From: a virus
Reading direction: 5' to 3' (one strand)
IMG/VR virus record: IMGVR_UViG_3300033148_006858
Coordinates: 1-46,982 of that record
DNA length: 46,982 nucleotides
This document shows positions 3,486 through 40,937 of this stretch, piece by piece. Below the pieces are notes generated by a model. That model made no database searches. It was not told the DNA's origin and saw only the letters and a program-made list of their open reading frames with translations. Made by a program: the position numbers and the translations under genes. Positions within the stretch are counted from its first letter, which is position 1, and every line of letters begins with the position of its first letter.

Positions 3486-3581
3486 TTCACCTGAGGGTGA
3501 ATTCGTCTGCCTAAACGACAGGCAGACCCCTTGCCCAGGGCTTCCCGCCCTGTTCAAGGGTCCACCCGCCTTTGGCGGGTG
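3486..3581. repeat. Four consecutive hairpins
   Basis: Four consecutive stem-loops occupy this stretch. TTCACC/GGTGAA spans 3486-3501 (4-base loop) and GTCTGCCT/AGGCAGAC spans 3505-3527. The third, 3528-3560, is a 6+6 bp stem with a symmetric 2x2 internal loop, CCCTTG/CAAGGG outside and CAGGGC/GCCCTG inside. CACCCGCC/GGCGGGTG spans 3563-3581 (3-base loop). They follow each other with almost no spacer. Confidence 0.8.
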
Positions 3582-3597
3582 CAAGGAATCCTCGCAT

Positions 3598-3653
3598 CCC
3601 TGCTCGGAATTAGTCTATGTCGGCTCCTTTGAACGGAGCCGACCTTAGCAGGG
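3598..3653. repeat. Nested hairpin
   Basis: The inner stem GTCGGCTCC/GGAGCCGAC (3619-3643, 9 bp, 7-base loop) is enclosed by a second pair, CCCTGCT (3598-3604) with AGCAGGG (3647-3653). Confidence 0.8.
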
Positions 3654-3676
3654 GGCCCCTGAATTAGAGTCTGCCT

Positions 3677-3800
3677 GCCAGCCTCAAAAATGCGGCTGGC
3701 TGCAAAGGGCGGATTTGGGGGGGTCTAACCGCCTCACAGTTTTTTCCCACGAGGCTCTGAGAGCTACGTGGGAAATGTAGGGTCGAAGAACTCCCTTCGA
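3677..3800. repeat. Three further hairpins
   Basis: GCCAGCC/GGCTGGC spans 3677-3700. TTTCCCACG/CGTGGGAAA spans 3743-3775, with an inner GCTC/GAGC pair. TCGAAG/CTTCGA spans 3783-3800. They complete the array that began at 3275. Confidence 0.75.
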
Positions 3801-3885
3801 TGGGTACTATCATACCAATTGGCCTGAGATCGGGCCTGAAATTTCTGTAAAATGGCTTTTATGAACGTTTCTTTAGAAAACCTGG

Positions 3886-3986
3886 GTTTTTAGCCGAAAA
3901 ATGGGGGTGTATATTATTTTTCGGATGGGTCCTACTGTGCGAGCTGGCTTTTTTCTCGAAGTGGACGTTTTTTAGGCCGAAAAATG
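3886..3986. repeat. Spaced direct repeat with CCGAAAAATG
   Basis: GTTTTTAGCCGAAAAATG (3886-3903) and GTTTTTTAGGCCGAAAAATG (3967-3986) are near copies about 80 bases apart. An inverted CCGAAAAAT lies between them around 3916-3924. These may be iteron-like binding sites. Confidence 0.55.
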
Positions 3987-4159
3987 CGTATCGCGTGGCG
4001 AGCGGGGTTAAAACATACCTCGCGGCGAACTTCCTTTGCGGCGCCCGCCCCTACGGGGCGGGGGGGCAGCGGCCAGCCCCCCCCCTTAAGTGGCCGTAGG
4101 CCGCTGAAAGGAAAGGCCTGCCAGCCGATCCACTGCCGGCAATCATCACCTGCTGGCAG

Positions 4160-4620
4160 TGTAGGCCAGCGGCCGGCCGGAGTTTAGACCGGCCGGCCAG
4201 CAAGGCCGGGCAGGCCGGACAGGCCGGCCAGCGGGCAGGTCAACGGAGCGACCGGCCAGCAGGTGAACTGGTCAACGTGACCGGCCTTCAGAGGGCAGAC
4301 CGGTCAGCAAAATAGCTGGCCAGTGGGTTGACCTTCAGAAGGTAGGCCGGCCACGTGGCAAGGCCGGCCAGCCAGCGGCTGGCTGGCAGGCCAGTAGGCC
4401 AGCAGGCCGGGCAGATGAGCTGGCCGAGGTGTGATAGGCCGGACAGGTAAACCCTACTAAACCAGTAGGTTTAGTAGGCGAGCGGGCGGAGCTGAAGCGG
4501 GGCGGGGCGGGAGGCGCCCCCGCAAATATAGCTGTTCGACAGGCGCTCTGCAATTGCCTTACAAGTACCTGCTGCCGGCCAGCTCTGCCAGCGATCGGCT
4601 ATGAGCGGCCGGCCAAAAAA
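4160..4620. repeat. GGCCGGCCAGC-rich low-complexity block
   Basis: The words GGCCGGCC, GGCCGG and CCAGC recur every 10-40 bases. Included are a perfect 10-bp stem GGCCGGCCGG/CCGGCCGGCC (4171-4198, 8-base loop) and a perfect 11-bp stem CCTACTAAACC/GGTTTAGTAGG (4453-4478, 4-base loop). No protein-like frame is visible. The composition differs sharply from both neighbours. Confidence 0.7.
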
Positions 4621-4654
4621 CTTGAAAAACTTTTAGTTTTTTTTAGTTTTTTCC

Positions 4655-4682
4655 TTGACAGCCAGCGAATCGCTGTTATACT
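4655..4682 (+). promoter_or_regulatory. Rightward (early) promoter
   Basis: TTGACA (4655-4660), a 16-base spacer and TATACT (4677-4682), preceded by long A/T tracts that could act as an UP element. The spacer contains the inverted repeat AGCGA-A-TCGCT (4664-4674), a likely operator. It drives the small-gene operon starting at 4731. Confidence 0.85.
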
Positions 4683-4730
4683 GAAGGCAGACAATAGCCG
4701 ATAACATTAACACTAATGAAAGGACAAAAT

Positions 4731-6199: not shown

Positions 6200-6451
6200 A
6201 TGGACAGGGCAAAAACAAGAAGACTTATCGGATACTATCACAAATATGGATATGAGATTATGGACGTGGATAGCAGTTATGCTGTTTATCACGCGGGCAA
6301 CTCACCTTATGATAGTGCTCAAGTGGTGGACTTGTCCGATGCTGTGCCGATTACGGAACTAAAGCAATTTTGCAAAGATACCGGCAAGGAAATTGCCGAA
6401 GAACAGGGGGCGGAGTTTTTGGGCGTAGAGCAAATAAATCTCGATTACTGA
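6200..6451 (+). CDS. Hypothetical early protein, 83 residues
   Basis: ATG at 6200, five bases after the GAAAGGGC core, with a preceding G making GGAAAGGGC. Mixed alpha/beta composition with an acidic C-terminal half. It ends in TGA that forms part of the next box. No family recognised. Confidence 0.65.
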   Translation: MDRAKTRRLIGYYHKYGYEIMDVDSSYAVYHAGNSPYDSAQVVDLSDAVPITELKQFCKDTGKEIAEEQGAEFLGVEQINLDY

Positions 6452-6462
6452 AAGGGCAAGAT

Positions 6463-6573
6463 ATGGTTGATTATGAAAAGTCTGTTAAAAAGGCCGCTGT
6501 AGGCACTATCATTATTGTGGTAGTGGTGGCAGTGGTGGAGTTGGTAATGTTTTTGGTGACGTTGATAAAGTGA
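6463..6573 (+). CDS. Single-pass membrane peptide, 36 residues
   Basis: Very short gene whose ATG at 6463 is set by the box at 6450. After a charged dozen residues (MVDYEKSVKK) the rest is one strongly hydrophobic helix (VGTIIIVVVVAVVELVMFLV) ending in Lys. It is thus an inner-membrane miniprotein. The stop codon TGA is also the first part of the next box. Possible roles include a superinfection-exclusion or membrane-depolarising peptide. Nothing more can be said. Confidence 0.65.
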   Translation: MVDYEKSVKKAAVGTIIIVVVVAVVELVMFLVTLIK

Positions 6574-6584
6574 AAGGGCAAAAA

Positions 6585-6800
6585 ATGTACGACTTATATC
6601 ACGTGGTCCATATTTGTTGTTGTCCGAAATGCAAAGGCCGTTTGTGGTCGCATAGTCAGGGCGACTGGAACGAGCATTTGCGATTTGTCGAGCCGTCGTT
6701 TATTATAGATATTCCTGCTGAACGGTTAAGCAATGATTCGGCTAAAAGGGAAAAACAGATAAGGGCTATTGTAAGTAAACACACAAAAAAACAAAAATGA
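6585..6800 (+). CDS. Small Cys-rich early protein, 71 residues
   Basis: The correct start is ATG 6585 after the box; the upstream in-frame GTG at 6570 would place the box inside the coding region. CCCPKC at residues 11-16 suggests metal binding, but a second cysteine pair is missing. The tail is very lysine-rich. No family recognised. Confidence 0.65.
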   Translation: MYDLYHVVHICCCPKCKGRLWSHSQGDWNEHLRFVEPSFIIDIPAERLSNDSAKREKQIRAIVSKHTKKQK

Positions 6801-6811
6801 AAGGGCAAAAA

Positions 6812-7372
6812 ATGAGTGTTGTAGTGTACGGAAAAAAAGACAGTGATTTTGTAGCTTTACAATTCGCACTTGAAGCCAGACAGCGAAAAGAAAGTCCTTA
6901 TGGACGCAATGATTTGCACCTTGTGCTAATCACCGAACAGCGGCAAGTCGTGGCCACCGATGGCAAGCGGCTTCACGTGGTAGATAATCTCGATACCGAA
7001 TTGCCTGTGCCCGGATTGTACAATCCAACGGTGCACACGAGAACGCGAATCCTTTTAGAATCCGCAGACAAGGAAGCCGTCTTTCCGGAAAACTGGCGGG
7101 ACGTGATCCCCGAACATAAGCAGTTTTGGGGCGATGTTCGGGACGCAAACCATATTTTGGCCTTACTGGGCAGTAAGCAGATTGTTGTTGATCTGGAGTA
7201 TTTGCGGGCACTGAAGCCGTACCTTGAAAACTCCGGCGATTGTAAAGTTTATTTTGGGGAACCGACGCGGCCGATTGTGGTTGACTTTGAGCACGACGCA
7301 GGTTATCATATGCGGAGTGTGATAATGCCACGACTGGTTGACGAGTGGCCAGAAGAGCAAACAGTTTCTTAA
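6812..7372 (+). CDS. Beta-sliding-clamp-like protein, 186 residues
   Basis: The start is ATG 6812 after the box; the in-frame ATG at 6797 lies before it. QVVATDGKRLHVVD (around residue 46) matches the clamp signature LVATDGHRL, and the C-terminal HMRSVIMPRL resembles the conserved VIMPMRL end of bacterial DnaN. A normal clamp subunit has three domains and about 370 residues. This has half that, so it is either a two-domain clamp or a single-domain relative. It could be the processivity factor for the phage polymerase at 17513-19378 or a decoy that binds host clamp partners. The match was made by eye. Confidence 0.55.
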   Translation: MSVVVYGKKDSDFVALQFALEARQRKESPYGRNDLHLVLITEQRQVVATDGKRLHVVDNLDTELPVPGLYNPTVHTRTRILLESADKEAVFPENWRDVIPEHKQFWGDVRDANHILALLGSKQIVVDLEYLRALKPYLENSGDCKVYFGEPTRPIVVDFEHDAGYHMRSVIMPRLVDEWPEEQTVS

Positions 7373-7395
7373 CCGATTATTTGAAAGGGCAAGCA

Positions 7396-8034
7396 ATGGA
7401 AAAGACACAGAAAATTCGGAAAGTTAGTACGTGGGTTGACGAGGTCGGTACGGAATACGTAGTTGAGCCAGTGGCCGAAACTATCGAAAAGGTGGACATC
7501 GGCAACGGTGAAACTCTTGTCGGGTATTTGTCGCAGGATACAGATCCGATGAGTCCGTCGGACTGGTCGGACGAATCGGGCTTTCTCGTACACTACCACC
7601 GAGATTTTTTTCTCAAGTCCGAGTATTGCTCCGAAGAGGAATTGCGGGACTACCTGGCCGGCGAAGTTGAGAAAGACTCTTGGCGGTGGTACGTGATGCC
7701 GGTCAAATCGTATATCCATAGTGGAGTTCATCTTGCCATAGGAACGGGCGGGTTTTCATTCGATCCGGGCGGCTGGGATACCTGCCACTGCGGCTTTGTG
7801 CTGGTTGATAAAAAAACGGCCAAAGACGAGGCGGAAGCATTGCAAAGGGCTAAAGGCATTGTCGCCGAATGGAATTGCTACCTAAGCGGCGATGTTTGGA
7901 CGTTGGTAATCCAGCGAAACGACAATGGGCAATTTGTCGAGATGTTGGACTCTTGCGGCGGGTTTTATGGCTTCGAGTACGCAAAACAAGAGCTGGGCGA
8001 CCAGCTTAAGGCCTTTGAAGAAGACTACAAGTAG
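7396..8034 (+). CDS. Conserved phage protein of unknown function, 212 residues
   Basis: ATG at 7396 behind a GAAAGGGCAAG box. The central segment WYVMPVKSYIHSG, the Trp/Cys-rich WDTCHCGFV and the C-terminal DSCGGFYGFEYA belong to a protein type I have seen in many bacterial and archaeal viruses, always without known function. It is acidic overall and has no membrane segment. Expected cytoplasmic early protein. Confidence 0.75.
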   Translation: MEKTQKIRKVSTWVDEVGTEYVVEPVAETIEKVDIGNGETLVGYLSQDTDPMSPSDWSDESGFLVHYHRDFFLKSEYCSEEELRDYLAGEVEKDSWRWYVMPVKSYIHSGVHLAIGTGGFSFDPGGWDTCHCGFVLVDKKTAKDEAEALQRAKGIVAEWNCYLSGDVWTLVIQRNDNGQFVEMLDSCGGFYGFEYAKQELGDQLKAFEEDYK

Positions 8035-8111
8035 CACTTGCCCTGGCCTGCGGCCGGTCAGGGATGGCCGGCCGTGGGCTTTTATAGGGCGACAATTTGA
8101 AAGGGCAAAAA

Positions 8112-8405
8112 ATGGAAACAAAAAGACGGTGGAAATTATCCGAAGTAAAACTGTTAAACCCCAAATGGTTTTCAGTGGAAAACCAAGCGTTTTTTGACGA
8201 TATAGGCTATAAAGTAGCGTATGGCCAGAAAACAGGTCAAACGTACCTTGTGCAGCATACAAACGGATGGACTGATTTTTTGGATGGAGTAAAGAAGCCT
8301 CATTATCGGTTGCATACGATTCGGGATGATGGTGGCATCGGTGAATTGTTGGACGAAAAGTTTTCGACACGGGAAGCGGTCGAAGAGTGGCTTCAGGATA
8401 AATAA
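8112..8405 (+). CDS. Hypothetical early protein, 97 residues
   Basis: The start is ATG 8112, five bases after GAAAGGGC; an in-frame TTG at 8097 lies before the box and is not used. The segment before the gene (8040-8090) is GC-rich with GGCCGGCC words like those in the control region and can form a hairpin. Product mixed alpha/beta, no family recognised. Confidence 0.65.
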   Translation: METKRRWKLSEVKLLNPKWFSVENQAFFDDIGYKVAYGQKTGQTYLVQHTNGWTDFLDGVKKPHYRLHTIRDDGGIGELLDEKFSTREAVEEWLQDK

Positions 8406-8439
8406 CAAATGGCAACAGGTGGTTTTGAAAGGGCGAAAA

Positions 8440-8625
8440 ATGCGGCGGTTTGATGTGTGGGTCGTCGTCGAGGAATGGGACGGCGATGATAAAATTTCCG
8501 AGGTCGAAACGAGCTGCCTCGGCAGGTTAAAAGACGTTGACCAGGCTTTGACGTTGTTTTATGCGACCGAGGCTTTAGGGCTTGCGGTCAGGGATTATTT
8601 GCCTATTAAGGTAGAGGACGAATGA
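8440..8625 (+). CDS. Hypothetical early protein, 61 residues
   Basis: Last gene carrying the GAAAGGGC box (8427). The product starts with a beta-rich MRRFDVWVVVEEWDGDD and looks like a small acidic folded domain. Its end overlaps the methylase start by four bases (ATGA), indicating coupled translation. Confidence 0.65.
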   Translation: MRRFDVWVVVEEWDGDDKISEVETSCLGRLKDVDQALTLFYATEALGLAVRDYLPIKVEDE

Positions 8626-30495: not shown

Positions 30496-31233
30496 TTAAG
30501 TATTGTAAACTACATTCTTTATTCTGTATGAGCCTCGTGCAATCTCCCAGGCACTAAAGCTCAAACCGTCCGGATTGTAACCGAGATGTTTCACGTTACG
30601 CTTCGCATCTCTGCGGATCGCATCCGCCAAAATTATCCTTGCCTTGTTTTCTTGCACCTCCAATAATTCATCTTTTCTCGATTCGGCCTCGGCCAGACAA
30701 AGGGCCTTCAAAGCCTCGACACAGTCGGGCGTCCCTACAGGAATATCGTTGTCATCCGACAGTTTTGTCGGAAACATCTTATACAGGTAACTGAGCGTAT
30801 ATGCCGCATCCGGCGTCGGGTAGAAAACTATTTCCCATTGCTGACCCGTCTCCGGCGTATAGTTTCCGGCCCGTATTGCAAAATACTCAGGATAGCTGCT
30901 ATAGTCCGAATACGAACGCATCTCGATAATGTCATCGAGCATCCTTTCATCGACGGGAGGATAACCGTCGTCTGCGGCAAATTGAAATAACCCGATTATC
31001 TCTCCGAAGTCTTCCGGCAATTCGTAAACATACGTCCCGCTGACAGTAGTCAGCGTATCGGATTGTTTCAAAAAAGACCAATCATAAGCCGAAAGAAATC
31101 GCCTGTATGCTGAATGCACGATGTCTTTGGCCTCGGTCAGGTTCGCCCCGGAAGGTCCGGAACTACCATAGGTTCCAAGAAACTTCGCCACTTCGTTGTA
31201 CAGGTCGCCAAATGTCAACCGTAATGTCGCCAT
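30496..31233 (-). CDS. Head-to-tail adaptor (tail tubular protein A-like)
   Basis: 245 residues. TFGDLYNEVAKFLG, then EAKDIVHSAYRRFLSAYDWSFL, then GTYVYELPEDFGEIIGL and WEIVFYPTPD match the podovirus adaptor family that joins portal and nozzle. ATG 31233 follows GGAAA. A hairpin (31251-31283) and the end of the sugar operon lie directly upstream. Confidence 0.8.
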   Translation of the reverse strand: MATLRLTFGDLYNEVAKFLGTYGSSGPSGANLTEAKDIVHSAYRRFLSAYDWSFLKQSDTLTTVSGTYVYELPEDFGEIIGLFQFAADDGYPPVDERMLDDIIEMRSYSDYSSYPEYFAIRAGNYTPETGQQWEIVFYPTPDAAYTLSYLYKMFPTKLSDDNDIPVGTPDCVEALKALCLAEAESRKDELLEVQENKARIILADAIRRDAKRNVKHLGYNPDGLSFSAWEIARGSYRIKNVVYNT

Positions 31234-31250
31234 TGCATTTTCCTTTGAAA

Positions 31251-31283
31251 GCTCTGGAGGCCCCCTCCGAGTACCTCCAGAGC
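31251..31283. terminator. Hairpin between sugar operon and adaptor gene
   Basis: GCTCTGGAGG (31251-31260) pairs with CCTCCAGAGC (31274-31283) over 13 bases. On the minus strand it is followed by TTTC, a weak T-run, then the ribosome site of the adaptor gene. It may be a partial terminator or RNA-processing site at the border of the inserted operon. Confidence 0.5.
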
Positions 31284-31313
31284 CAGAAAGGAAACAGGAT
31301 GAAGGAATCCCCG

Positions 31314-31490
31314 CTATCGCGGCTCAGCCGCAACTCCTTCGCCCGTTTCTATAATAACCAACCGCCGGTCAGGGGTGATTGCTATTCTACCGGCATACTC
31401 TCTTTCACCGCCCTCGTACTCATACCAAATTTCACTCCACGAAAGCGATGATTTCCTCCGCGATTCTCTTTGCCGTGTCCGGCTTTTCAT
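31314..31490 (-). CDS. Small protein overlapping the neuC end, 58 residues
   Basis: ATG at 31490, in a different frame from neuC and overlapping its last 59 bases. The first 17 residues are very basic (MKSRTRQRESRRKSS). The rest, WYEYEGGEREYAGRIAITP and LVIIETGEG, looks like a genuine small beta domain. The ribosome site is weak. Last gene of the sugar operon if real. No family recognised. Confidence 0.4.
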   Translation of the reverse strand: MKSRTRQRESRRKSSLSWSEIWYEYEGGEREYAGRIAITPDRRLVIIETGEGVAAEPR

Positions 31491-32415
31491 AAGGATTTTT
31501 CACCTTGCTCCAGTCGATTTTGTCGATTTGCTTGATTGCTTCTTTGATGTCCTCGACTGTACCTTCACAGTCGATTACACTCTTGGCACGCATCCTACCA
31601 TCCTGCCTAGAGCCAACATTGATAGTTGCAGTACGTAACGAGGGGGCCTCGATAATGCCGGAGGAACTGTTGCCGATAATGTACGGAGCACGCTGAACCA
31701 TCCGCACAAAAAGGCTTCTTCCTATATTAGAGAAAACTCTCGTCTTTTTCTCTTTATCCCTCGTCTTGGCTTTTTCCATCATCTCAGCGATGAATCCAGA
31801 GCCGGCATCATTGTTTGGCAAAAACAGCACCCGCCGCTCGCCTTCTGTCGCTTTCAGGATTGCTTCAAGGTCTTTGTGCAATTGACACAGGTCGGCCTTA
31901 TACGGATGAAATACTACTACGACATCCCCTTTCGTAGTAGGTTCCGATAAATTCGGAAACAAGCAACCCAATGAACCATATTCCTCAACATCGAACCTGA
32001 GCGTAGGCTCGGCAAGCGCCCTGATACACTTGCGATAGCCTTGGTCAAGGGAGCCATAAGTCTGGTCGCTTCCTTCTATATGCGCAACAGGTATGCCAAG
32101 ATTATAACAAGCAAGAGCGCTACTAAGTATTTCAAAACGATCTCCCAGAACCACCGCACACTTATACACGGCACGCTTGTACACTAAACCACGCAAGACC
32201 TGAGGCAACTTCAGCATCACCAGGCCCATCGCAGTACAAGTTCCGTCGAAAGTATCCGAGTTCGGCAATGCCTCTACACGAATGTCGGGTCTTTCAAGGG
32301 CATCTCCAACATCTATTATATCGACCTCGATCCCCTTTATCAATTCATCATATAAAAGCGCCAATAAACCCCAGTCGCTTCGGCCGCCTGTTATCATTGC
32401 TACCTTCTTTGCCAT
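31432..32415 (-). CDS. neuC: UDP-N-acetylglucosamine 2-epimerase, NeuC-like
   Basis: 327 residues from ATG 32415, which has AGGGG and ACAGG upstream. MITGGRSDWGLL at the start, VLGDRFEIL, HIEGSDQTYGSLDQGYR and GNSSSGIIEAP are the landmarks of hydrolysing UDP-GlcNAc 2-epimerases, which release ManNAc (or a related sugar) for sialic acid synthesis. Cytoplasmic. Works before NeuB, encoded just upstream. Slightly shorter than the usual 370 residues. An in-frame extension upstream to 32553 reads as low-quality sequence and lacks a ribosome site. Confidence 0.85.
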   Translation of the reverse strand: MAKKVAMITGGRSDWGLLALLYDELIKGIEVDIIDVGDALERPDIRVEALPNSDTFDGTCTAMGLVMLKLPQVLRGLVYKRAVYKCAVVLGDRFEILSSALACYNLGIPVAHIEGSDQTYGSLDQGYRKCIRALAEPTLRFDVEEYGSLGCLFPNLSEPTTKGDVVVVFHPYKADLCQLHKDLEAILKATEGERRVLFLPNNDAGSGFIAEMMEKAKTRDKEKKTRVFSNIGRSLFVRMVQRAPYIIGNSSSGIIEAPSLRTATINVGSRQDGRMRAKSVIDCEGTVEDIKEAIKQIDKIDWSKVKNPYEKPDTAKRIAEEIIAFVE

Positions 32416-32569
32416 TATCCTGTTCCCCTGTAACCGAAACCTGTTCTTCGTCCTGCTGATACAGATCATACACCGACCGGTACATTTCGGTCTGCCATTG
32501 TCCGAAGTCTGTTTCAAGATTCGGCTTATTCGTTTCAAATGTGGCTTTCTCAAAGGTTTCTGTGCTCAT
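32348..32569 (-). CDS. Small acidic protein between neuB and neuC, 73 residues
   Basis: ATG 32569 overlaps the neuB end by 13 bases. It starts MSTETFEKATFETNKPN and continues through YDLYQQDEEQV to a basic end, overlapping the neuC start by 68 bases in another frame. It could be an accessory subunit or chance frame. It does not resemble the SAF domain missing from the NeuB protein. Confidence 0.4.
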   Translation of the reverse strand: MSTETFEKATFETNKPNLETDFGQWQTEMYRSVYDLYQQDEEQVSVTGEQDNGKEGSNDNRRPKRLGFIGAFI

Positions 32570-32582
32570 ATTCAACACTACC

Positions 32583-33416
32583 TTAACCTGTAAGTTTCCT
32601 CCAGATAAGAGATTTCTCGGCCTTTTCGATGGTTTTACAGCCGTCTCCGAGGGCTGCTTCAGTGTCTCGTATCCGTCGGCACATATCCATAAATTCGAGA
32701 GGCTCCAAAGCCACTCTTGCGTCTGGGCCACCGTTCATTTTACTCAGCGTCAAATGCTTCTCGATGACTTGAGCACCAAGAGCAACAGCAGCCACCGGAA
32801 CTGTCCAGCCCAACGTATGGTCGGATATTCCAACCCTTCCAACCAGCCGCAGTTTATTCATTGCCCGCAAATTCACCTGGTCGAACGGACAAGGGTATGC
32901 CGAAGTACATTGGAGTAGCGTCAGCTTCTGCGGGTCCATTTTTTCCGTCAGTAAAGAAACTGCCTTCTTTACCTCGTCAAGAGTATGCAAACCAGTAGAG
33001 ATGATTGCAGATTCGAAATACTTTTGTACTGCCTCAAGTATCTCAATATGGGACAACTCAACCGAGGGAATCTTTACTGATTTAGCTCCGATATATGCAA
33101 GCTCTTTTGCACTCTCTATATCAAAAACAGAGCACAAAAAATCTATTCCCGCTTTCTTGCAATATAAAAACACCTCGTGTATTTTATCAATATCCAGGCG
33201 ATATTTTTCCAGAATTTTTCCAACCGAGTTGCTTCCATTCTTGCGTCCATTCACAGCCAAACGGCCGGCATATTCTTCCGAGTAGAGTTGGAATTTCGCA
33301 CAGTCCGCACCGGCAGCTTTGGCGTTGTCGATTAACAGCTTCGCCAAGGTCAGTGAACCGCAGTGCTCCAGGCCGCATTCAGCGATAATATAGGTTTTTG
33401 TATCCGATAAGTTCAC
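32583..33416 (-). CDS. neuB: N-acetylneuraminate synthase-like protein, NeuB barrel without SAF domain
   Basis: 277 residues from GTG 33416. YIIAECGLEHCGSLTLAK, then AGADCAKFQLY, KIPSVELSHIEIL, STGLHTLDEV, LLQCTSAYPCP, ISDHTLG and EKHLTL follow the order of the NeuB TIM barrel, which condenses an acetamido sugar with phosphoenolpyruvate. The enzyme normally has a C-terminal SAF (antifreeze-like) domain of about 60-70 residues that helps bind the sugar. Here the protein ends after the barrel. The start overlaps the GNAT gene by 38 bases. Confidence 0.85.
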   Translation of the reverse strand: MNLSDTKTYIIAECGLEHCGSLTLAKLLIDNAKAAGADCAKFQLYSEEYAGRLAVNGRKNGSNSVGKILEKYRLDIDKIHEVFLYCKKAGIDFLCSVFDIESAKELAYIGAKSVKIPSVELSHIEILEAVQKYFESAIISTGLHTLDEVKKAVSLLTEKMDPQKLTLLQCTSAYPCPFDQVNLRAMNKLRLVGRVGISDHTLGWTVPVAAVALGAQVIEKHLTLSKMNGGPDARVALEPLEFMDMCRRIRDTEAALGDGCKTIEKAEKSLIWRKLTG

Positions 33417-33861
33417 CGTTCTCGCGTCTGCCAATAAAAACAAATCCCAGTTTCTCGTAAAGACTGTGCGCCGCCTCGTTCTCTTCGTCAACGTGAAGCC
33501 GTATCCGCTCAACTCCCCTGGCCCAAGCCGCCTGAAGAAGAAAGGTACAAAAAGCGTGGCCATAGCCCGCCATCTGCCATTCGCAGTCGATGGCTACCCC
33601 CAGAGTAATGTCTTCCCACTTCTCGTCCCAACCACGGAGTAAGCCGTAGCCGATTACATCAGAATTATGTAAAAGCAAGTAATGCAGGTCGAGACCTTCA
33701 TAATTCGCAATCTTATATGCCGTCTCACTATTGAAAGGATGAGGATGGAAAAACCTATTACTGGCTATTCGATAAAAAAACTTCTCAAGAGCCTTTTCGT
33801 TTTCCGGTCCTGCCTTTACAATTTGTAAAACTGCATCGTTGACAAATTCGGGGCAAGTCAT
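33379..33861 (-). CDS. GNAT N-acetyltransferase
   Basis: 160 residues. ITLGVAIDCEWQMAGYGHAF is the acetyl-CoA binding region and RIRLHVDEENEAAHSLYEKL with GFVFIGRREN the usual C-terminal signature. Within a nonulosonate operon it most likely acetylates an amino sugar intermediate, like PseH or NeuD do in other pathways. It overlaps the radical SAM gene upstream by 77 bases and neuB downstream by 38. Confidence 0.82.
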   Translation of the reverse strand: MTCPEFVNDAVLQIVKAGPENEKALEKFFYRIASNRFFHPHPFNSETAYKIANYEGLDLHYLLLHNSDVIGYGLLRGWDEKWEDITLGVAIDCEWQMAGYGHAFCTFLLQAAWARGVERIRLHVDEENEAAHSLYEKLGFVFIGRRENGELIGYKNLYYR

Positions 33862-34705
33862 CTTTGTTTCCTTCGGCCAAGGTCTTCCGCAAATACTGCA
33901 GGGCAGGGCTGAAAAGCCAGATATTTGAAAGAGTGCTTTCCCAAATATTGCCTACAAGCAACTCATTGTCATAATCAGAACAGCAGGCCGTTACAGTCCC
34001 ATCCCAATTCACCGAGAGTTTATCAAACATCTCAGGACAAGTCGGGAGGATGTTGGTGTCTCTGGTCAGGTCTCTCGTCCGTCCAATCTCAACCTTATCA
34101 CAAAATCCTTTTACGCGCTCGATAAACTCCTGCCGTTGCTCTGCGGAGACATCCTCAGTAACCGTAGTTCCGATCTGAATAAAGGGCCTTGTGCCGTTGC
34201 CACGTCTTCTGTATAGTGTCTTTACAATACCCAGCAACTCTTCAAAAAAATCAACCTTTCTCCACTGAAAATACTGCCGCTTATTCACCCCTTGAAAAGA
34301 GAACTTTATGCTGTCGATATACCGTAAAATATCGGCAACGGCCTCATCATCAACATAAAGACCGTTCGTATTGATATGCACAAGAAGGCCCAGTTTTTTA
34401 GCAGCCCTGGCAAAATGGAAGCATTGCGGATGAATAAGTGGTTCACCCCACCGAATGAACCTAAGCGGCGTCTTGTGCTCGTTCGCCTCAGCAAGGATGC
34501 GTGAATACGTTTCACCGGACATAAAGCCTCGTACCCGTTTCATCGTATTCTGACCAACTGGACACATCCTGCACCTGAAATTGCAGCAATTCGTCAACTC
34601 AATGTCGAGAAGCCTCGGAAACTCCGGCAGGTTCGCAATCTTATCCTTTGGAGTCCCTGAATTGCAAGCCTTATAAATCGGAACAAAGGGGTTTACAGCC
34701 GCCAT
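33785..34705 (-). CDS. Radical SAM protein with SPASM-like C-terminus
   Basis: 306 residues. The iron-sulfur/AdoMet motif C41-x3-C45-x2-C48 (NCCNFRCRMCPVGQ), IRWGEPLIHP and HINTNGLYV identify the radical SAM core. The C-terminal cysteines (CPEMFDKL, TACCSDYD, ICQRCSFTNC) fit a SPASM-type auxiliary cluster. Such enzymes often modify peptides or sugars. Its substrate here is unknown. The gene overlaps neuA by 13 bases. Confidence 0.82.
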   Translation of the reverse strand: MAAVNPFVPIYKACNSGTPKDKIANLPEFPRLLDIELTNCCNFRCRMCPVGQNTMKRVRGFMSGETYSRILAEANEHKTPLRFIRWGEPLIHPQCFHFARAAKKLGLLVHINTNGLYVDDEAVADILRYIDSIKFSFQGVNKRQYFQWRKVDFFEELLGIVKTLYRRRGNGTRPFIQIGTTVTEDVSAEQRQEFIERVKGFCDKVEIGRTRDLTRDTNILPTCPEMFDKLSVNWDGTVTACCSDYDNELLVGNIWESTLSNIWLFSPALQYLRKTLAEGNKDDLPRICQRCSFTNCKGRTGKRKGS

Positions 34706-35406
34706 CTTTTCAGTGCCTTGAACCTTGCCTCGGCGATTTCCCAGTCATATTTCGTGTCGATGTCTATATCATCGTAAGTATCGCAAATGAAGGCATAAAT
34801 CTTTGTTTTCCAATAATCCTTGCGCTTAGCCCATACTTCCCACTTACCGAGATAGATATAACCATTCACCCTGTAAGCGGCCGGCAAATCCTGTCTGTTC
34901 TTATTCTTGAACTTTTCAGGATACCAACCTGTAACACAGAGGTCTGGCGGAATCGGTTTTACCACAATAGTCGGGTCTCTGAATTCGTGCATCCCGATAA
35001 CGAAATCAGCATTCTTGTCTAAAATAAACTGTGCCGCACACTTGATCTGCAGGGGTCTCAACCCAGGCGAAGTGGCCTGTATCAACTGAACATAGTCGTA
35101 CTTGCAATCGAGACGATGCAGACAATCAACCATCGCATCTGCAACAAGAGCCTTATCATCTGCTAATTCAGCAGGTCGCTGCTGAGGCTCAGCACCATAT
35201 TTTTCAGCCAAAGCCAGGATTTCCGAAGAATCGCTATTCACGATTATCCTGTCGAAAACACCGGATTTCTGGGCGGTTTTGATACTCCAATAAATCAAGG
35301 GTTTGCCGCAGAACTTCTTGAGATTCTTGTCCTTTATACCCTTGCTGCCGCCTCTCGCCGGAATTACTGCGAGGAATCTTTTTCCGCCGAACATTCTTCG
35401 AGCCAT
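34693..35406 (-). CDS. neuA: CMP-nonulosonate (acylneuraminate) cytidylyltransferase
   Basis: 237 residues. AVIPARGGSKGIKDKNLK at 13-30 is the nucleotide-binding signature of CMP-sialic acid synthetases, followed by IIVNSDSSEILALA, QLIQATSPGLRP and a C-terminal DIDIDTKYDWEIAE. It activates the nine-carbon sugar as CMP-sugar for transfer. The gene overlaps the glycosyltransferase gene upstream by 43 bases. Confidence 0.88.
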   Translation of the reverse strand: MARRMFGGKRFLAVIPARGGSKGIKDKNLKKFCGKPLIYWSIKTAQKSGVFDRIIVNSDSSEILALAEKYGAEPQQRPAELADDKALVADAMVDCLHRLDCKYDYVQLIQATSPGLRPLQIKCAAQFILDKNADFVIGMHEFRDPTIVVKPIPPDLCVTGWYPEKFKNKNRQDLPAAYRVNGYIYLGKWEVWAKRKDYWKTKIYAFICDTYDDIDIDTKYDWEIAEARFKALKRWRL

Positions 35407-36158
35407 CCATCTAAGCCGGTATAGTGTAAACCTTCCCTCGGTTCAACTCTGGCGTGAATGTAATCACTGTCATAACCAAAACGAACCCCTGCCCTTGCCA
35501 TTCTCTTAGGCAAGTCGATGTCATTATTCGCGTCCCAGGCCCTTCTCCAGGAATGTTTGCTGCACTTAAAACACTTCAAGTATCCCCGATACAGCCAGGA
35601 CTGTACGGCCCCAACCGGCTTTCCATAAAAAGAATAGCCCAAAGGAATACCCCCGCAAATCTGTATATCACCAGAAATAAACTCAGCGCCCGTATGTTCG
35701 ACAATTTGCAACATCCTTTCAAGATGCTTTGGGTCCCACACATCGTCATCATCAATACGGGCTATCCAGTCCCCTACTGCCATAGACAGGCCGTGATTTA
35801 TTGCTCTTACCGGCCCGACGAGCCAATGATATTTCGGCTCGTCGGGATAGTGTAGTTTCTTCTCTATAGGAAACACGTAAATCCGCGAGTCCATCCACTT
35901 TGTCTTGAATTCCACATCAAGGCCGTCAGTAATCACAAGCAATTCCCAGTTCTGGTAAGTCTGGTCTATCACTGATTTTATGGCCTTCGAAGCATCCCTG
36001 CCAATGGTCGGCATAATGATACTGACCAAAGGTTGGTTCTTATGAACCCAACCCCCTCGGCGGGCTAAGTATAGGCGCACCTTGTCCGCTACGCCGTACC
36101 AGCACCATAGTACCGCAACTATTAACTTGTCAAGGAGCTTTTGAGGGCGCGTTCTCAT
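35364..36158 (-). CDS. Family 2 glycosyltransferase
   Basis: 264 residues. VSIIMPTIGRDASKAIKSV is the nucleotide-sugar binding start of GT-A enzymes, and IARIDDDDVW is the metal-binding Asp motif. The N-terminal 40 residues contain a hydrophobic stretch (LIVAVLWCWYG) that may anchor it at the membrane. Probable transfer of a sugar to protein, lipid or glycan. The acceptor is unknown. Confidence 0.82.
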   Translation of the reverse strand: MRTRPQKLLDKLIVAVLWCWYGVADKVRLYLARRGGWVHKNQPLVSIIMPTIGRDASKAIKSVIDQTYQNWELLVITDGLDVEFKTKWMDSRIYVFPIEKKLHYPDEPKYHWLVGPVRAINHGLSMAVGDWIARIDDDDVWDPKHLERMLQIVEHTGAEFISGDIQICGGIPLGYSFYGKPVGAVQSWLYRGYLKCFKCSKHSWRRAWDANNDIDLPKRMARAGVRFGYDSDYIHARVEPREGLHYTGLDGWLEECSAEKDSSQ

Positions 36159-37143
36159 TTCCTGTTCCCTTCTGCATCTTCACCACTTCGCTTGGCCGTA
36201 GCTCAGTCCCGTCCGGCTCGTGCTTCTTAGACTCGATGGGCCTATAAATCCAGGGTGTCCAATCGGGGAAATCCTTAAAGCCGCCACGCTTAAGATATTC
36301 TTCTTCGGGTGTAAAGCTGTGTCCCTTGTAATAATCCCGCAGAGCCTGTATATCTACACACTTGCACCGGCCCTGAGCACATTTCGGAGAATCCAGCTTA
36401 GAAAGCAACTGAAGCATCCCTTGCGAAACGTCATCATACGCCTGATAACTGTTAGCCCTCACGGGGAAAGGCAAGCAAGCCGAACACCTGCGGCACAACT
36501 CTTCCCGTTGATACGCAAAAGCGTCTTCATCACGTTTCCACCATTCCCATTCTACAGGCAGACCTTTCGGTCCTTTCAACAGCATTGCCCTCGCTGCCGC
36601 AACCTCACAGAAATACGCCCCCATTGGTGTTACGCTCGCGGACCATCGCAAATTCACCCAACAATTGTCGATGATCTTATTCATCAATTGCCGGTCTTTT
36701 TCCTTTCTGTCCGGCCCCATATGAAAATTGCCGTTAAAAACTTCCTCGATGGCCACCTGTAAAGGCTGATGCCAACAGTGCATTGGATCGCTATGGTCAT
36801 TAAAAGCGATAAGTTCCTTGTAGAAAGTCTCGTTAATAAGTTTCTCATATTTCTTCCAATTCGCACCGCTTGTCCACAATTCTCTGCGGGCCTTCACCGG
36901 AACATACTTTTGCAACAATTTGCATATCTTCTCGAAATCGGGGTGCAATGTCGGCTCCCCGCCCATTATGCCAATATGTCCTGGGTAGCCCTGGAGCGAG
37001 TCTAAAGCCTTCTCAACTTCGGAGACCGTCATAAAAAATGGCTTGGTATGATGGCCTACAAACCTGGAACAATGGCAACACTCGAAGGGGCACGCATTCG
37101 TTAACTCGATTTGAATCAATTTGTGGTATCGTGGTAAAAGCAT
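36130..37143 (-). CDS. Second radical SAM protein
   Basis: 337 residues. C18-x3-C22-x2-C25 (ACPFECCHC), MGGEPTLHPDF and ELWTSGANW form the radical SAM core. The second half has many cysteines (FCEVA, LCRRCSACLP, CAQGRCKC), suggesting extra iron-sulfur clusters. It is not closely similar to the other radical SAM protein at 33785-34705. It overlaps the glycosyltransferase by 29 bases. Substrate unknown. Confidence 0.8.
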   Translation of the reverse strand: MLLPRYHKLIQIELTNACPFECCHCSRFVGHHTKPFFMTVSEVEKALDSLQGYPGHIGIMGGEPTLHPDFEKICKLLQKYVPVKARRELWTSGANWKKYEKLINETFYKELIAFNDHSDPMHCWHQPLQVAIEEVFNGNFHMGPDRKEKDRQLMNKIIDNCWVNLRWSASVTPMGAYFCEVAAARAMLLKGPKGLPVEWEWWKRDEDAFAYQREELCRRCSACLPFPVRANSYQAYDDVSQGMLQLLSKLDSPKCAQGRCKCVDIQALRDYYKGHSFTPEEEYLKRGGFKDFPDWTPWIYRPIESKKHEPDGTELRPSEVVKMQKGTGNENAPSKAP

Positions 37144-37154
37144 TTCCTGTCTCC

Positions 37155-38312
37155 TTATCTTGCACGGCTTGGCCGTACTGGACTAAACCTGTTCGGATTC
37201 AACAATTCCAACTTTGTCCCTCTCCGTCTCTTCATCTGCACCCATTCTTTCAAATACCAGATATGCATATAATTTTCCATAAAGGTCCTGTTCCCAAACT
37301 TATTTATCGTCCTGGTAAACTCCTCTTCCGTCATATCGAAGTACCCCAGGTATTCTTTCAAATAGGTGTTCGGGAATTCTCCGTCATAATTTTCTACCAA
37401 TTCAAGGGCCTCATCTCTATCAAGCAAACCTTCTCGTATCTGAATACAAGCATCCGACGTGCAGCGCCCAAAACCATACTTGACAAACATTAAATAGGCG
37501 TGCAAATCCTGGAGCTTGTCAGATAGTTGGCAGGTGTTCGTGTAAGTACCTATCGAGCGCTCCTCGGCAATTCGCATTCCTCTCTTAATAGCAAACTCAG
37601 CGTGCTTGGTCGGCGACCAGTCCTCAAACCTCGACCACTGCGTAAAAAACACATCATCCAGGTTTTCGGGAACTTTCCAGCAGGGATCGTTCAGCCAATA
37701 GAAATTCATCAGATATTCTTTATCCGCCGGCTTCTTCCACCTGTCTTTTTCCCTGTTACTGCCGCCGTATTCCATCTCACCGTCTTCGCCATACACGACA
37801 AACGGGATGCCAAGGTCTATAGCAGTGTTAATTATGACCAGCGAAATCGCAGTCTCCCACGGATGTTTCGGCCTGCCCTGCTCGATAAAAAACTTCTTAG
37901 CGAGCTTCCAGTATTTCTCCACCGGTAACTCGATTTCCATTTTCTGAAAACCCCTCGATAGGTTTTCTCTATTCCACGCCCCGATAGTCATCTCAAGGTG
38001 TGGTATTACAGATACCAATAAAGGGGTCATTCCAAACCTGTCGCGTACCGTATGGGCCACATAAACCGAGTCCTTACCACCAGACCAAGGTATAATGACA
38101 TCAGGGTCTTTTCCGTTTCCTCTGAACTTATCACAGAGCTTCCCGAAATATCTCTGACGCTCGTCCCAGTCGATTCGGGTCTTTTTATTTATCGCGTGCT
38201 CGCAAGCGTTGCAAGTCAACAGGCCATCTATTTCCCTGAAAGTGATCCTCGGCCTCGTCGAGGGTGCAAGACATCGCTCACACCAGAAAATGTTTTCTCT
38301 TATTTCTACCAT
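37155..38312 (-). CDS. N-acetyl sugar amidotransferase (PseA/WbpG type)
   Basis: 385 residues from ATG 38312, preferred over ATG 38336 because AAAGGA lies just upstream. Cys11/14 and Cys34/37 form a zinc site, and WSGGKDSVY (76-84) is the ATP PP-loop. The family aminates N-acetyl groups to acetamidino groups on nonulosonates and other surface sugars, using ammonia from a glutaminase partner that I do not see here. It extends the sugar pathway beyond plain sialic acid. Confidence 0.82.
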   Translation of the reverse strand: MVEIRENIFWCERCLAPSTRPRITFREIDGLLTCNACEHAINKKTRIDWDERQRYFGKLCDKFRGNGKDPDVIIPWSGGKDSVYVAHTVRDRFGMTPLLVSVIPHLEMTIGAWNRENLSRGFQKMEIELPVEKYWKLAKKFFIEQGRPKHPWETAISLVIINTAIDLGIPFVVYGEDGEMEYGGSNREKDRWKKPADKEYLMNFYWLNDPCWKVPENLDDVFFTQWSRFEDWSPTKHAEFAIKRGMRIAEERSIGTYTNTCQLSDKLQDLHAYLMFVKYGFGRCTSDACIQIREGLLDRDEALELVENYDGEFPNTYLKEYLGYFDMTEEEFTRTINKFGNRTFMENYMHIWYLKEWVQMKRRRGTKLELLNPNRFSPVRPSRAR

Positions 38313-38349
38313 TTCCGTTTCCTTTCTGCCAGCCACAGCAGCCGCTCAC

Positions 38350-39678
38350 TTAGCTTGCCTTTATTACTACTTTATCCTGTTCCAGTCGTCTTGCAAGCGA
38401 AATCCCACACCACGGACATTTTATCATATCTCGCCCAAACTCTGTAACACACTGCCCCCCGCAACACTCGCATTTCCAAGTCATAACGTGCTTATAAACG
38501 CCTGGAGCATCAAACTCCTTTTTCGCCGGCGGCCACAACGCTGGAATGTTTTTTTCTATATCATCCGTAACCGGCAATCTTTCGATCGCAGCAGCAGCAC
38601 GTTTGCAGGCTTTACCATCAATAGTTCCGTAAAATTCCTTCTCAAGTTTCTTCAGGTTCTTAATATTCGCGTTCGACTTGGACTTGAAAATCTTACCGAC
38701 CGTTCCGTCGGGATTCTTGATTATCTGTTCGGTGAATCGAATCTTCGAGATAGCCTTCAGAAGAGCATCAACATCCTCAAAGTCAGGAGAAACGTGGGGA
38801 TACTCATACCCAGGAACCTGATTCACATTTCCAAAAAAGCTCAGCGCCGGAATGTTGTACAAATGCGCCTCGATTCCCATCGTCGAACCGGCGTGTATTA
38901 GAAGGTCTGTATTAGCAAGCGCCACCTCTGTCGGACAAGGCACTACAACCTTGATCCTACCGCCCAACGTATTCTGGTAAGCAATCGGTAACTCGCCTGT
39001 CTTCGGCCTGACAAACAGATCGAAAACATCCCCAAACTCCTGATACACCCGCCGCATCATATGCAGCCAGACTTCTCTTCCGTAGGAGTGTCTCTGCCAG
39101 GCGTCCCTGTGAATCGGACTACCAAAAGGCGCTTCAGGAACATTGTATTCCGGCGATCTGTCTGCGTGCCCCCAACCAGGGGCAAAAAGCAAATGAGGTT
39201 TTTGCTGACGAAGCACCTGGGGCTTGGGTGCTCTCAAGTACACATCAAAAGGCATCGCCCCAACAGCGACTACTTTCTCCGCAGGTAAGTAGCCGTGCTT
39301 AATAAGCAGGTCCCTGAAATCCTCGGACCAAACTATTTCAAGATCAACATCATAGGGCCAAGCCCCGATGACGGTAGCCTGTTCGGCACGGCCCATCTTG
39401 TCCCACGCATCCCAGGCTGCTCCACCTTCGGTGCGCCGGACAACTACACGAATGCCCCACTCCATACATTGGCGAGCCAATTCCACCGTGTACTCGCACC
39501 TGGCCTCTGGTATAACCAGAATATGGGGCTTGAAATGAAGAATATGCTCACGATTCTTCGGCAGAAAATTTGTTACCCAAACTTCATAGCCAAGTTCTCT
39601 AAGCTCATCCGCTAAGATGTTATCAACGGTTGCATCCCTCTGCGGCAGGTTGGTCATTATAGAGACTCTTGGTATCAT
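38350..39678 (-). CDS. GT-B-like surface-carbohydrate protein with C-terminal zinc ribbon
   Basis: 442 residues. A Rossmann-type start (RVSIMTNLPQRDATVDNIL), a central LLFAPGWGH and ALANTDLLIHAGSTMGIEAH fit GT-B fold surface-carbohydrate biosynthesis proteins and CMP-sugar transferases. The last 50 residues contain CECCGGQC and CPWCG, a zinc ribbon not usual in such enzymes. It could transfer the CMP-activated sugar made by the other enzymes. Start overlaps the regulator gene by 56 bases. Confidence 0.65.
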   Translation of the reverse strand: MIPRVSIMTNLPQRDATVDNILADELRELGYEVWVTNFLPKNREHILHFKPHILVIPEARCEYTVELARQCMEWGIRVVVRRTEGGAAWDAWDKMGRAEQATVIGAWPYDVDLEIVWSEDFRDLLIKHGYLPAEKVVAVGAMPFDVYLRAPKPQVLRQQKPHLLFAPGWGHADRSPEYNVPEAPFGSPIHRDAWQRHSYGREVWLHMMRRVYQEFGDVFDLFVRPKTGELPIAYQNTLGGRIKVVVPCPTEVALANTDLLIHAGSTMGIEAHLYNIPALSFFGNVNQVPGYEYPHVSPDFEDVDALLKAISKIRFTEQIIKNPDGTVGKIFKSKSNANIKNLKKLEKEFYGTIDGKACKRAAAAIERLPVTDDIEKNIPALWPPAKKEFDAPGVYKHVMTWKCECCGGQCVTEFGRDMIKCPWCGISLARRLEQDKVVIKAS

Positions 39679-39937
39679 CCTGTTTCTCCTTCTGATAAAT
39701 ATCGGACCCGTTGCACCAAAGCATTACTTCGTTTACCGAAACCGGCTCGGCAAAGAAAAATTTGACTGGCCTCATATAAATTTCCGCCAGTTTACTGAGG
39801 TGTGAAAACTTCAGGGCGCCTTTACCTTTCTCAACTTTCCGAAGCAGTGCTACATCTATCTTGCCTTCCTTGGCAGCTTGCTCCAACGTTAAGCCGATAG
39901 TTTCGCGTGCAAATTTCAGCCTCTTACCAATTACCAT
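39623..39937 (-). CDS. XRE-family transcription regulator
   Basis: 104 residues. Residues 1-65 are a helix-turn-helix (RLKFARETIGLTLEQAA and LRKVEKGKG), and YMRPVKFFFAEP resembles the segment that follows in ImmA/IrrE-partner regulators. First gene of the sugar operon, whose promoter ends six bases before its ATG, so it is probably translated from a leaderless message and controls its own operon. Confidence 0.82.
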   Translation of the reverse strand: MVIGKRLKFARETIGLTLEQAAKEGKIDVALLRKVEKGKGALKFSHLSKLAEIYMRPVKFFFAEPVSVNEVMLWCNGSDIYQKEKQDDTKSLYNDQPAAEGCNR

Positions 39938-39943
39938 ACACTC

Positions 39944-39972
39944 ATTTTATTTCCAAGTTCCGTCTCTGTCAA
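39944..39972 (-). promoter_or_regulatory. Promoter of the sugar operon
   Basis: Minus strand TTGACA (39972-39967), 17-base spacer, TAAAAT (39949-39944). The ATG of the regulator follows six bases after the -10 box. The -35 is preceded by ATTTTTC, identical over 13 bases (ATTTTTCTTGACA) to the leftward promoter at 3.1 kb. Confidence 0.88.
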
Positions 39973-40011
39973 GAAAAATTTGTGGGGTGAGCCTCCCTGC
40001 TCAAGCCCCAC
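39973..40011 (-). terminator. Terminator after the head-protein gene
   Basis: On the minus strand GTGGGG (from 40011) and GAGC pair with GCTC and CCCCAC (to 39982), followed by AAATTTTTC. It ends the head-gene transcription just before the sugar-operon promoter; the T-run overlaps the promoter's upstream T-tract. Confidence 0.78.
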
Positions 40012-40022
40012 TCCGAGCAAAA

Positions 40023-40937
40023 TTAGGTTACCTTGACATTCGCACCTTGCACAACCCACTTGACGCCGTTCCACTCGATGTCAAGAAATTCATCCTTAGC
40101 ATCAAGAGAAGCCGCAGTAGCCGCAGTCAGCGGAGCAGCAGACAGATAATCTGCCGAAAGGTTCGGCGTAGCGCCAGTAAACGAAATCTTGACAGTATTC
40201 GTCGGATTTGCGCTTACCCTGAATACCACCCTCTGCCCACTGAAACGGCCATCCTGGACAGCAATGCTGGCTACACCGGCGGCAGCGGCCAACGAGGTAA
40301 TTACCACCTCACCGTGATTTATCACGGTTACTCCGGTCAATGCTGTAGTCATAGCAATAACCTGAACACCGCCGGAAGGTGGTCCCTCGCAAAGCTCGGC
40401 CTGTACAAGGGCACTGCCTGAGGTCTCAGCCTCAAGGGCTATTGCGGCTCCAGCGCCAAGCTGCCCGCCTGTGCGGAACTGCCCGTTAATACGTGGGGCC
40501 GTGCTTCCAGCCACACCAACACTGTTGGTACAAATACCAAAGTTCAGCAACTCATAGCTGTTCTTGGTTGTAGTAGTACCATCTCTTGGGTCGATAGTAA
40601 CGGCACAATACACCTTGCAGACCGAACCAGGAGTATGAATAGAAATCCAGTTCGGGCCGACTACACCATCAGACGCAGCATCAACAACACCCGCAAAGTG
40701 CAGGTTGTTGTCATACGACGGCGCCTCTACCATCAGTCTTCTGGCATCACACCAATCGGTAATGGCCGTACCTATTGCCCTGCCATAAGGCGCAGTAGTA
40801 AAGGCTTCATTTTCGGCGGTTACGCCGACAGCATCCCAATTGTAGCAAACCGCGTAACCTTCGTTGGCGGTTCCACTACGCAGAAAAACCCTCTTGGTCC
40901 GCTGTATAACGCCACCACCAGACACTTTGTTACTCAT
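40023..40937 (-). CDS. Head decoration or minor capsid protein
   Basis: 304 residues, Ala/Gly/Thr-rich and beta-rich, with a C-terminal KDEFLDIEWNGVKWVVQG typical of capsid-associated proteins of tailed phages. It follows the major capsid gene and is followed by a terminator, so it is the last head gene of its unit. Exact role not shown by the sequence. Confidence 0.65.
   Translation of the reverse strand: MSNKVSGGGVIQRTKRVFLRSGTANEGYAVCYNWDAVGVTAENEAFTTAPYGRAIGTAITDWCDARRLMVEAPSYDNNLHFAGVVDAASDGVVGPNWISIHTPGSVCKVYCAVTIDPRDGTTTTKNSYELLNFGICTNSVGVAGSTAPRINGQFRTGGQLGAGAAIALEAETSGSALVQAELCEGPPSGGVQVIAMTTALTGVTVINHGEVVITSLAAAAGVASIAVQDGRFSGQRVVFRVSANPTNTVKISFTGATPNLSADYLSAAPLTAATAASLDAKDEFLDIEWNGVKWVVQGANVKVT

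Follow-up and report, generated by a model that had tools for sequence, protein, structure and literature searches.

The DNA analysed here is the IMG/VR virus record IMGVR_UViG_3300033148_006858, a single stretch of 46,982 bases (the window). It comes from metagenomes and is apparently a closed phage genome, because an exact repeat of 114 bases is present at both ends. The minus strand carries terminase, capsid and tail-type genes, and the plus strand a helicase and DNA polymerase A. We found no tRNA gene in the window and no integrase match in the record; the latter makes late expression in a lytic cycle likely. Among 50,697 deposited phages nothing matches the capsid protein, so that the phage family is undescribed in this set. 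The element of interest is a cassette of sugar genes on the minus strand, at approximately 31.4–39.9 kb, which an initial annotation made from sequence alone had described as a nonulosonate (sialic acid-type) operon between head and tail genes.

Every gene named in that annotation is present (Table 1). Profile searches, which it had proposed as a check, were run with Pfam and NCBIfam models and agree with the named families, although several matches fall below the cut-offs. The order of transcription is helix-turn-helix (HTH) regulator, GT-B-like protein, WbuX, a first radical S-adenosylmethionine (SAM) enzyme (rSAM-1), GT2, NeuA-like protein, a radical SAM/SPASM enzyme (rSAM-2), GNAT, NeuB, an open reading frame of 73 amino acids, and NeuC-like protein. 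Most cassette genes touch or overlap, as had been noted, and the location between head and tail genes is correct, with a post-capsid gene on one side and a head-tail gene on the other. There is no shift in base composition at the cassette borders. NeuB probably starts at a GTG codon at 33416 (277 amino acids) rather than at 33563, and WbuX probably starts at 38312.

Table 1. Features of the cassette and its flanks (positions in the window)
Feature	Position	Strand	Evidence
GT-B-fold glycosyltransferase-like protein, C-terminal zinc ribbon (BFO_1060/surf_polysacc-like)	38350..39678	minus	NF046086 1.1e-19, TIGR04396 1.9e-14; first conserved cassette gene
WbuX-type N-acetyl sugar amidotransferase, SGGKDS loop, zinc-type cysteines	37155..38312	minus	TIGR03573 258 bits; PDB 8wex 9.7e-39
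rSAM-1, radical SAM (CPFECCHC)	36130..37143	minus	Pfam Radical_SAM 1.4e-9
GT2 glycosyltransferase	35364..36158	minus	Pfam Glycos_transf_2 1e-17; hydropathy
NeuA/PseF-like CMP-sugar cytidylyltransferase	34693..35406	minus	CTP_transf_3 1.3e-26; PDB 9ftb 4.2e-31
rSAM-2, radical SAM/SPASM (CNFRCRMC), BtrN-like	33785..34705	minus	Radical_SAM 1.1e-14, SPASM 4.5e-12
GNAT acetyltransferase	33379..33861	minus	Acetyltransf_1 1.2e-13
NeuB-type synthase, TIM barrel without SAF	32583..33416	minus	Pfam NeuB 2.5e-68
Small open reading frame, 73 amino acids, between neuB and neuC	32348..32569	minus	Open reading frame list; start read off sequence
NeuC-like hydrolysing sugar 2-epimerase, shortened, GGE-to-GSD motif	31432..32415	minus	Pfam Epimerase_2 4.5e-36; TIGR03568 202 bits; PDB 5xvs 5e-25
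HTH_3 regulator	39623..39937	minus	HTH_3 4.4e-7
Sigma-70-like promoter TTGACA-17-TAAAAT	39944..39972	minus	11/12 positions match
Terminator-like hairpin after post-capsid gene	39982..40011	minus	-18.4 kcal/mol, z -2.0
Hairpin closing cassette, before tail gene	31250..31284	minus	z -4.25, 0/200 shuffles
Left flank, post-capsid gene	40023..40937	minus	36-54% in cassette-bearing relatives, 31% in L008
Right flank, head-tail/tail gene	30496..31233	minus	PHROG tail 2.9e-5; 45-47% in G001/G005/G006, 33% in L008

Relatives were collected with a capsid-protein profile, which found four, and with cassette and tail profiles, which found more. A single-protein query with WbuX found no viral relatives, whereas the capsid alignment found some, and the tail gene alone found none in the first scan. 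Relatives by TerL (L004-L009) are too distant for comparison, except L008, which served as a cassette-free site. The closest counterpart of the cassette is in G005, an uncultured phage of 47.6 kb with repeated ends, where the comparison of gene neighbourhoods showed all nine genes recurring in unchanged order at the equivalent site, along with a few small additional ones. Identity between the two cassettes ranges from 41% (NeuC) to 68% (NeuA); the corresponding values for the structural genes are 64% (capsid), 54% (terminase) and 47% (tail gene). At the same site, G001 encodes GT-B, WbuX, a hexapeptide acetyltransferase, a second GT-B, NeuA, rSAM-2, a 147-residue protein, NeuD and NeuB, and G006 encodes GT-B, WbuX, NeuA, rSAM-2, a similarly placed 163-residue protein, NeuD and NeuB. 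Two further relatives, L010 and G009, begin with GT-B and WbuX (in G009 after a methyltransferase) before their contigs end inside the cassette. GT-B, WbuX, NeuA, rSAM-2 and NeuB form the core of all fully read cassettes in the family, and every relative whose sequence was read across the site retains the post-capsid gene on the left flank. In two distant relatives, L008 and L085, the flanking genes are separated by just one small gene, and the cassette is absent. Rather than the inserted operon originally described, the locus is an old island of variable content at a fixed site, diverging about as the structural genes do. In G001 the NeuB frame overruns the start of the tail gene (L011:19632-19738), so that the cassette adjoins the tail gene without a spacer.

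Where it can be measured, the cassette is under purifying selection like the structural genes. Between G005 and G009, the ratio of nonsynonymous to synonymous substitution rates (dN/dS) is 0.14 for GT-B, 0.07 for part of rSAM-1 and 0.11 for the methyltransferase, and 0.07 and 0.09 for capsid and terminase, respectively; WbuX is saturated and gives no ratio (proportions of nonsynonymous and synonymous differences, pN 0.13 and pS 0.81). Two contigs from other metagenomes, L082 and L083, encode proteins that are 99.7-100% identical to those of G005 over the parts covered, which argues against an assembly artefact.

The cassette had also been credited with its own promoter and regulator. Both elements can be found, the promoter-like sequence lying directly upstream of the HTH gene, but a dedicated control unit stays unestablished, because promoter-like sites occur in the region at chance frequency (12 found, 12.7 expected) and no HTH gene is present at the cassette site in the gene lists of the relatives read. 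The -10 box ends six bases ahead of the HTH start codon (window 39937-39950), an arrangement that suggests a possibly leaderless transcript, like that of some phage repressors. As for the terminator said to precede the cassette, a hairpin is present that is weak when taken alone (z about -2) but recurs after the post-capsid gene in four lineages (the window, G001, G006 and G009). In G001 and G006, six consecutive T come almost immediately after the stem; in the window and G009 the stem has a weaker T-run. The downstream hairpin is well beyond chance, and both hairpins flanking the cassette are credible.

A second, unrelated phage lineage, with a different portal and capsid type, is represented by L022 and L023 (G007 and G008). 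Its set (L022:1065-11872, also in L023), longer than that of the window, comprises a nucleotidyltransferase, NeuA, rSAM-2, WbuX, HisF/WbuZ, LegB-like and LegC-like proteins, NeuC, NeuB, NeuD and GT2, and is by its sequences a predicted near-complete legionaminic-type pathway. The rSAM-2 of this lineage is 40% identical to that of the window, and a relative of rSAM-1 (38%) adjoins the capsid gene in G007 (L058:14496-15389). Putative nonulosonate genes thus appear repeatedly in phages, accompanied by these two types of radical SAM enzyme. In a tree of rSAM-2, phage and bacterial genes group together (100/99); the tree resolves neither the placement of G007 nor the direction, and does not demonstrate shared descent of rSAM-2 between the two phage lineages.

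Outside phages, a few genomes from the same phylum as L013 (Proteobacteria according to the record title) carry orthologues of rSAM-2 with 41-44% identity; these are solitary genes without nonulosonate neighbours and so give no indication of function. When 84,980 bacterial and archaeal genomes were scanned by pattern with the single protein WbuX, relatives of up to about 40% identity were found at the sensitivity of that scan, some of them in legionaminic-type clusters. Among the 50,697 deposited phage genomes no nonulosonate cassette of this kind was found: WbuX, like the capsid, is unmatched, and matches to NeuB, NeuA and the radical SAM enzymes are weak, stray or bacterial. A Moritella 'phage' record with NeuA and NeuB (H3) was rejected as a bacterial contig misfiled among phages. 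A literature search on phage nonulosonate genes returned no relevant paper.

The three enzymes that define the pathway have recognisable relatives of known structure. PF03102 is matched by NeuB over its full length. Residues E13, K41, K115, N182, H200, E219, H221 and D232, at putative active-site positions, are invariant across five phages, and the invariant segments align with solved NeuB/SiaC chains. The nearest solved relatives are 6ncs (the best match, a chain of 290 residues), 8h2c and SiaC; 6ncs is a 'sialic acid synthetase', which we take to be from Leptospira. For NeuC, the nearest solved relative is a GDP/UDP-diacetylbacillosamine 2-epimerase (5xvs), and the GDR and SLD motifs are retained. 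NeuA belongs to the CTP_transf_3 family and is closest to the solved NeuA 9ftb.

WbuX scores above the TIGR03573 cut-off of 203.2 bits, as do its counterparts in six further phage records, and its solved relative (8wex) is an N-acetyl sugar amidotransferase. Both radical SAM enzymes have the CX3CX2C motif. rSAM-1 has no SPASM hit; rSAM-2 has a SPASM domain and is conserved in five phages. The best profile match of rSAM-2 in the PDB is BtrN (8.9e-22), a dehydrogenase acting on an aminocyclitol, and its fold matches are SuiB, BtrN, DesII and BlsE. Given this proximity to BtrN in sequence and to all four proteins in fold, our best guess is that rSAM-2 would perform a redox change on the sugar. 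To our knowledge, two radical SAM enzymes imply a modification that has not been described for known nonulosonates. Directly after rSAM-2 and before NeuD, G001 and G006 each have a cysteine-containing gene of 147-163 residues with no Pfam hit (L011:17738-18181 and L053:13913-14404), possibly a partner of the radical SAM enzyme.

The GT-B gene is conserved in six phages at 31-49% identity and is the first sugar gene of the cassette every time. Its product matches models of BFO_1060 and surface-polysaccharide glycosyltransferases below their cut-offs (70.8/200 bits for BFO_1060, and up to 89 in G001). AlphaFold predicts a GT-B fold at good confidence (predicted local distance difference test, pLDDT, 83.5), and Foldseek matches this model to UDP-GlcNAc 2-epimerase, TarL/TagF and KpsC; as modelled, the protein resembles 2-epimerases and CDP/CMP-sugar polymer transferases. 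GT2 is 52% identical to its counterpart in G005 and 37% to that in G007, and GNAT is 43% identical in G005. Hydropathy analysis found no clear membrane span in any cassette protein, GT2 included. 'Self-contained', as the cassette had been called, is no more than partly apt and does not extend to a HisH/HisF partner, to a 4,6-dehydratase (LegB/PseB) or aminotransferase (LegC/PseC), for which profile searches of the window cassette were negative, or to a flippase, polymerase, oligosaccharyltransferase, ligase or export gene, none of which is in the cassette. L003, a closer relative, does encode a PseB-like UDP-GlcNAc 4,6-dehydratase, located among the head genes between portal and scaffold (L003:4845-5684).

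With homologues of NeuC, NeuB and NeuA present, the right enzymes as their nearest solved structures, and the set recurring in related phages and one unrelated phage, we consider it very probable that the cassette does carry out nonulosonate-type synthesis, as had been proposed. Several observations weigh against this assignment. There is no SAF domain in the entire window record, where the NeuB profile match ends at 271/329, and all five NeuB-bearing phages have NeuB without this C-terminal domain, an arginine of which binds substrate in Neisseria NeuB. The scores of NeuB (256/400 bits for NnaB, 180/340 bits for PseI), NeuC (TIGR03568, 202 vs 236 bits) and NeuA (PseF, 166 vs 206 bits) fall below the equivalog cut-offs. 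The HGGE...D...RH motif of NeuC is not intact, with RK/RA in place of RH; in the window and G005, GSD replaces the GGE of hydrolysing epimerases and about 40 consecutive residues are lacking. G001 and G006 have no NeuC at all and would therefore need a host precursor. WbuX has none of its HisH/HisF-type ammonia-supplying partners in the window cassette. The absence of the SAF domain is not disqualifying, because the solved 6ncs chain is similarly short. Given the SAF-less NeuB, the atypical NeuC and the two radical SAM enzymes, the product may be something other than a true sialic acid.

From the gene content, order, conservation and family assignments we infer the reactions, sugar and acceptor as follows. 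Late in infection, NeuC would convert a host nucleotide sugar into a 2-epimerised N-acetyl sugar, which NeuB would join with phosphoenolpyruvate into a nine-carbon acid, to be activated by NeuA with cytidine monophosphate (CMP). WbuX would probably turn an acetamido into an acetamidino group, the GNAT acetyltransferase would acylate the sugar, and the two radical SAM enzymes would introduce additional changes, a BtrN-like oxidation being one possibility. Judged by its gene content, the window set would suffice for an amidino-modified neuraminic-type sugar, or else would act on a host precursor, since the 4,6-dehydratase and aminotransferase are missing. Finally, the soluble GT-B protein and GT2 would transfer the sugar. 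Transfer would most likely take place in the cytoplasm, because the cassette proteins look soluble and there is no export or ligase gene, and the position of the cassette in the structural block points to virion proteins as the acceptor.

Overall, we favour, with somewhat better than even confidence, a nonulosonate synthesis-and-transfer cassette that an undescribed phage family retains at a fixed place in its late structural operon and whose sugar most likely goes onto virion proteins. For the coating of the virion itself we would put the chances at about even. A more specific version is put forward tentatively: a dedicated and ancient virion-glycosylation system that makes its own CMP-activated, acetamidino- and radical SAM-modified nonulosonic acid by means of a NeuB without SAF and a divergent NeuC. 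A soluble transferase would attach this sugar to the particle in the cytoplasm, and the same two radical SAM enzymes would be used by a second unrelated lineage.

The same kind of sugar could instead be put on host surface glycans, so as to block superinfection or to keep progeny off debris and the infected cell. Mimicry of host glycans, also raised in the initial annotation, is conceivable as well. The bacterial relatives of WbuX are located in surface polysaccharide clusters, surface-carbohydrate transferases are relatives of the GT-B protein, whose fold is near TarL/TagF and KpsC, and the differences in gene content among relatives would be expected if the cassette tracked changing host surfaces. 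We consider a host-surface role a serious rival but the less likely one: a flippase, polymerase, ligase or membrane protein is absent from the cassette, which is placed among the late structural genes and not with the early ones, and with no integrase there would be no long-lived lysogen to protect. A different doubt concerns the chemistry. The NeuB-like barrel and atypical NeuC might have taken on a new role in making a different 3-deoxy-ulosonate or a modified cytidylylated sugar, in which the radical SAM enzymes would be central. Such a non-classical product would fit the missing SAF domain (in 5/5 NeuB-bearing phages), the changed NeuC motif, the scores below equivalog cut-offs and the presence of two radical SAM enzymes in two unrelated phage lineages. 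Against it speak the conserved residues retained in the NeuB barrel, the similar shortness of 6ncs, and a G007 set that otherwise reads as a legionaminic-type pathway, and we regard it as improbable.

Two further explanations were rejected. Phage glycosyltransferases can modify DNA (as stated in PMC12619734), and the window phage also encodes a Dam methyltransferase; the sugar might accordingly have served as a DNA hypermodification against restriction. The record contains no gene of the thymidylate synthase or hydroxymethylase type, and the cassette enzymes are late and CMP-sugar dependent, so that we consider hypermodification very improbable. Still less credence can be given to a chance host fragment or assembly chimera without phage function. 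Sugar genes are common bacterial cargo, and NeuC looks atypical, but order and site are the same in G005, itself recovered from other metagenomes, dN/dS is low, and no bacterial WbuX relative exceeds about 40% identity in the genome scan described above, at its sensitivity. Conserved synteny in separately assembled genomes already contradicts this explanation.

Three observations concern other parts of these genomes. A repeated leader, GAAAGGGCAAnnAATG, stands ahead of several early genes at window 6450-8442, with six copies where 0.07 would be expected by chance; a GAAAGGGGAATAATG form also lies upstream of genes in L050 and L051. Between two divergent gene blocks, window 3050-4728 (approximately 1.7 kb) has no convincing gene and no Rfam match, contains many GGCCGGCC-type repeats and ends in a promoter-like TTGACA...TATACT; it could be a replication or control region. 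A trypsin-like (HtrA-type) protease follows the portal gene in L002 (2828-3493) and L003 (4078-4842), and none was seen in the window.

If our interpretation is true, phages make sialic acid-like sugars in addition to degrading or binding them, which would be a new viral route for changing particle or cell surfaces and a source of new enzymes for making rare sugars (SAF-less synthases and sugar-acting radical SAM proteins). The cassette, with its nine genes, makes the role of such sugars for a phage directly testable.

Glycosylation of virions has proposed precedents: the mycobacteriophages Che8 and Rita encode glycosyltransferases believed to decorate proteins of the capsid or tail (Freeman et al. 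2023, as cited in PMC11256854 and PMC12619734). Unlike the window, these phages are not described in those texts as having genes for nonulosonate synthesis or radical SAM enzymes. Large phages such as LR756508.1 and cyanophage AG-345-L05 have NeuB-like genes of the same barrel type; these differ in being only about 30% identical, scattered among unrelated sugar genes with no WbuX/radical SAM cassette nearby, in genomes of 149-484 kb. Bacterial and archaeal clusters (Syntrophus L012, Proteobacteria L013, Methanoregula L016) resemble the phage cassette in combining NeuB, NeuC, a NeuA-type protein and WbuX (34-40% identical), but have HisH/HisF-like genes, dehydrogenases or aminotransferases as well; no relative of rSAM-2 at E<=1e-40 was found in the five genomes searched. 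Nonulosonate transferases have been characterised in Tannerella forsythia, which has a locus for protein O-glycosylation with pseudaminic or legionaminic acid, including GtfS (PMC6120980, PMC6388019). The phage GT-B protein matches, below cut-off, the BFO_1060 family, whose name is a Tannerella-style locus tag that may or may not denote GtfS or another nonulosonate transferase. Unlike the phage cassette, the Tannerella locus is on a bacterial chromosome, serves an S-layer glycan, and includes many transferases and PseB/C/G/H genes. Like the phage cassette, it places CMP-nonulosonate genes beside a transferase of about 440 residues, and its native sugar, Pse5Am7Gra, has an amidino group, like the sugar proposed for the phage set.

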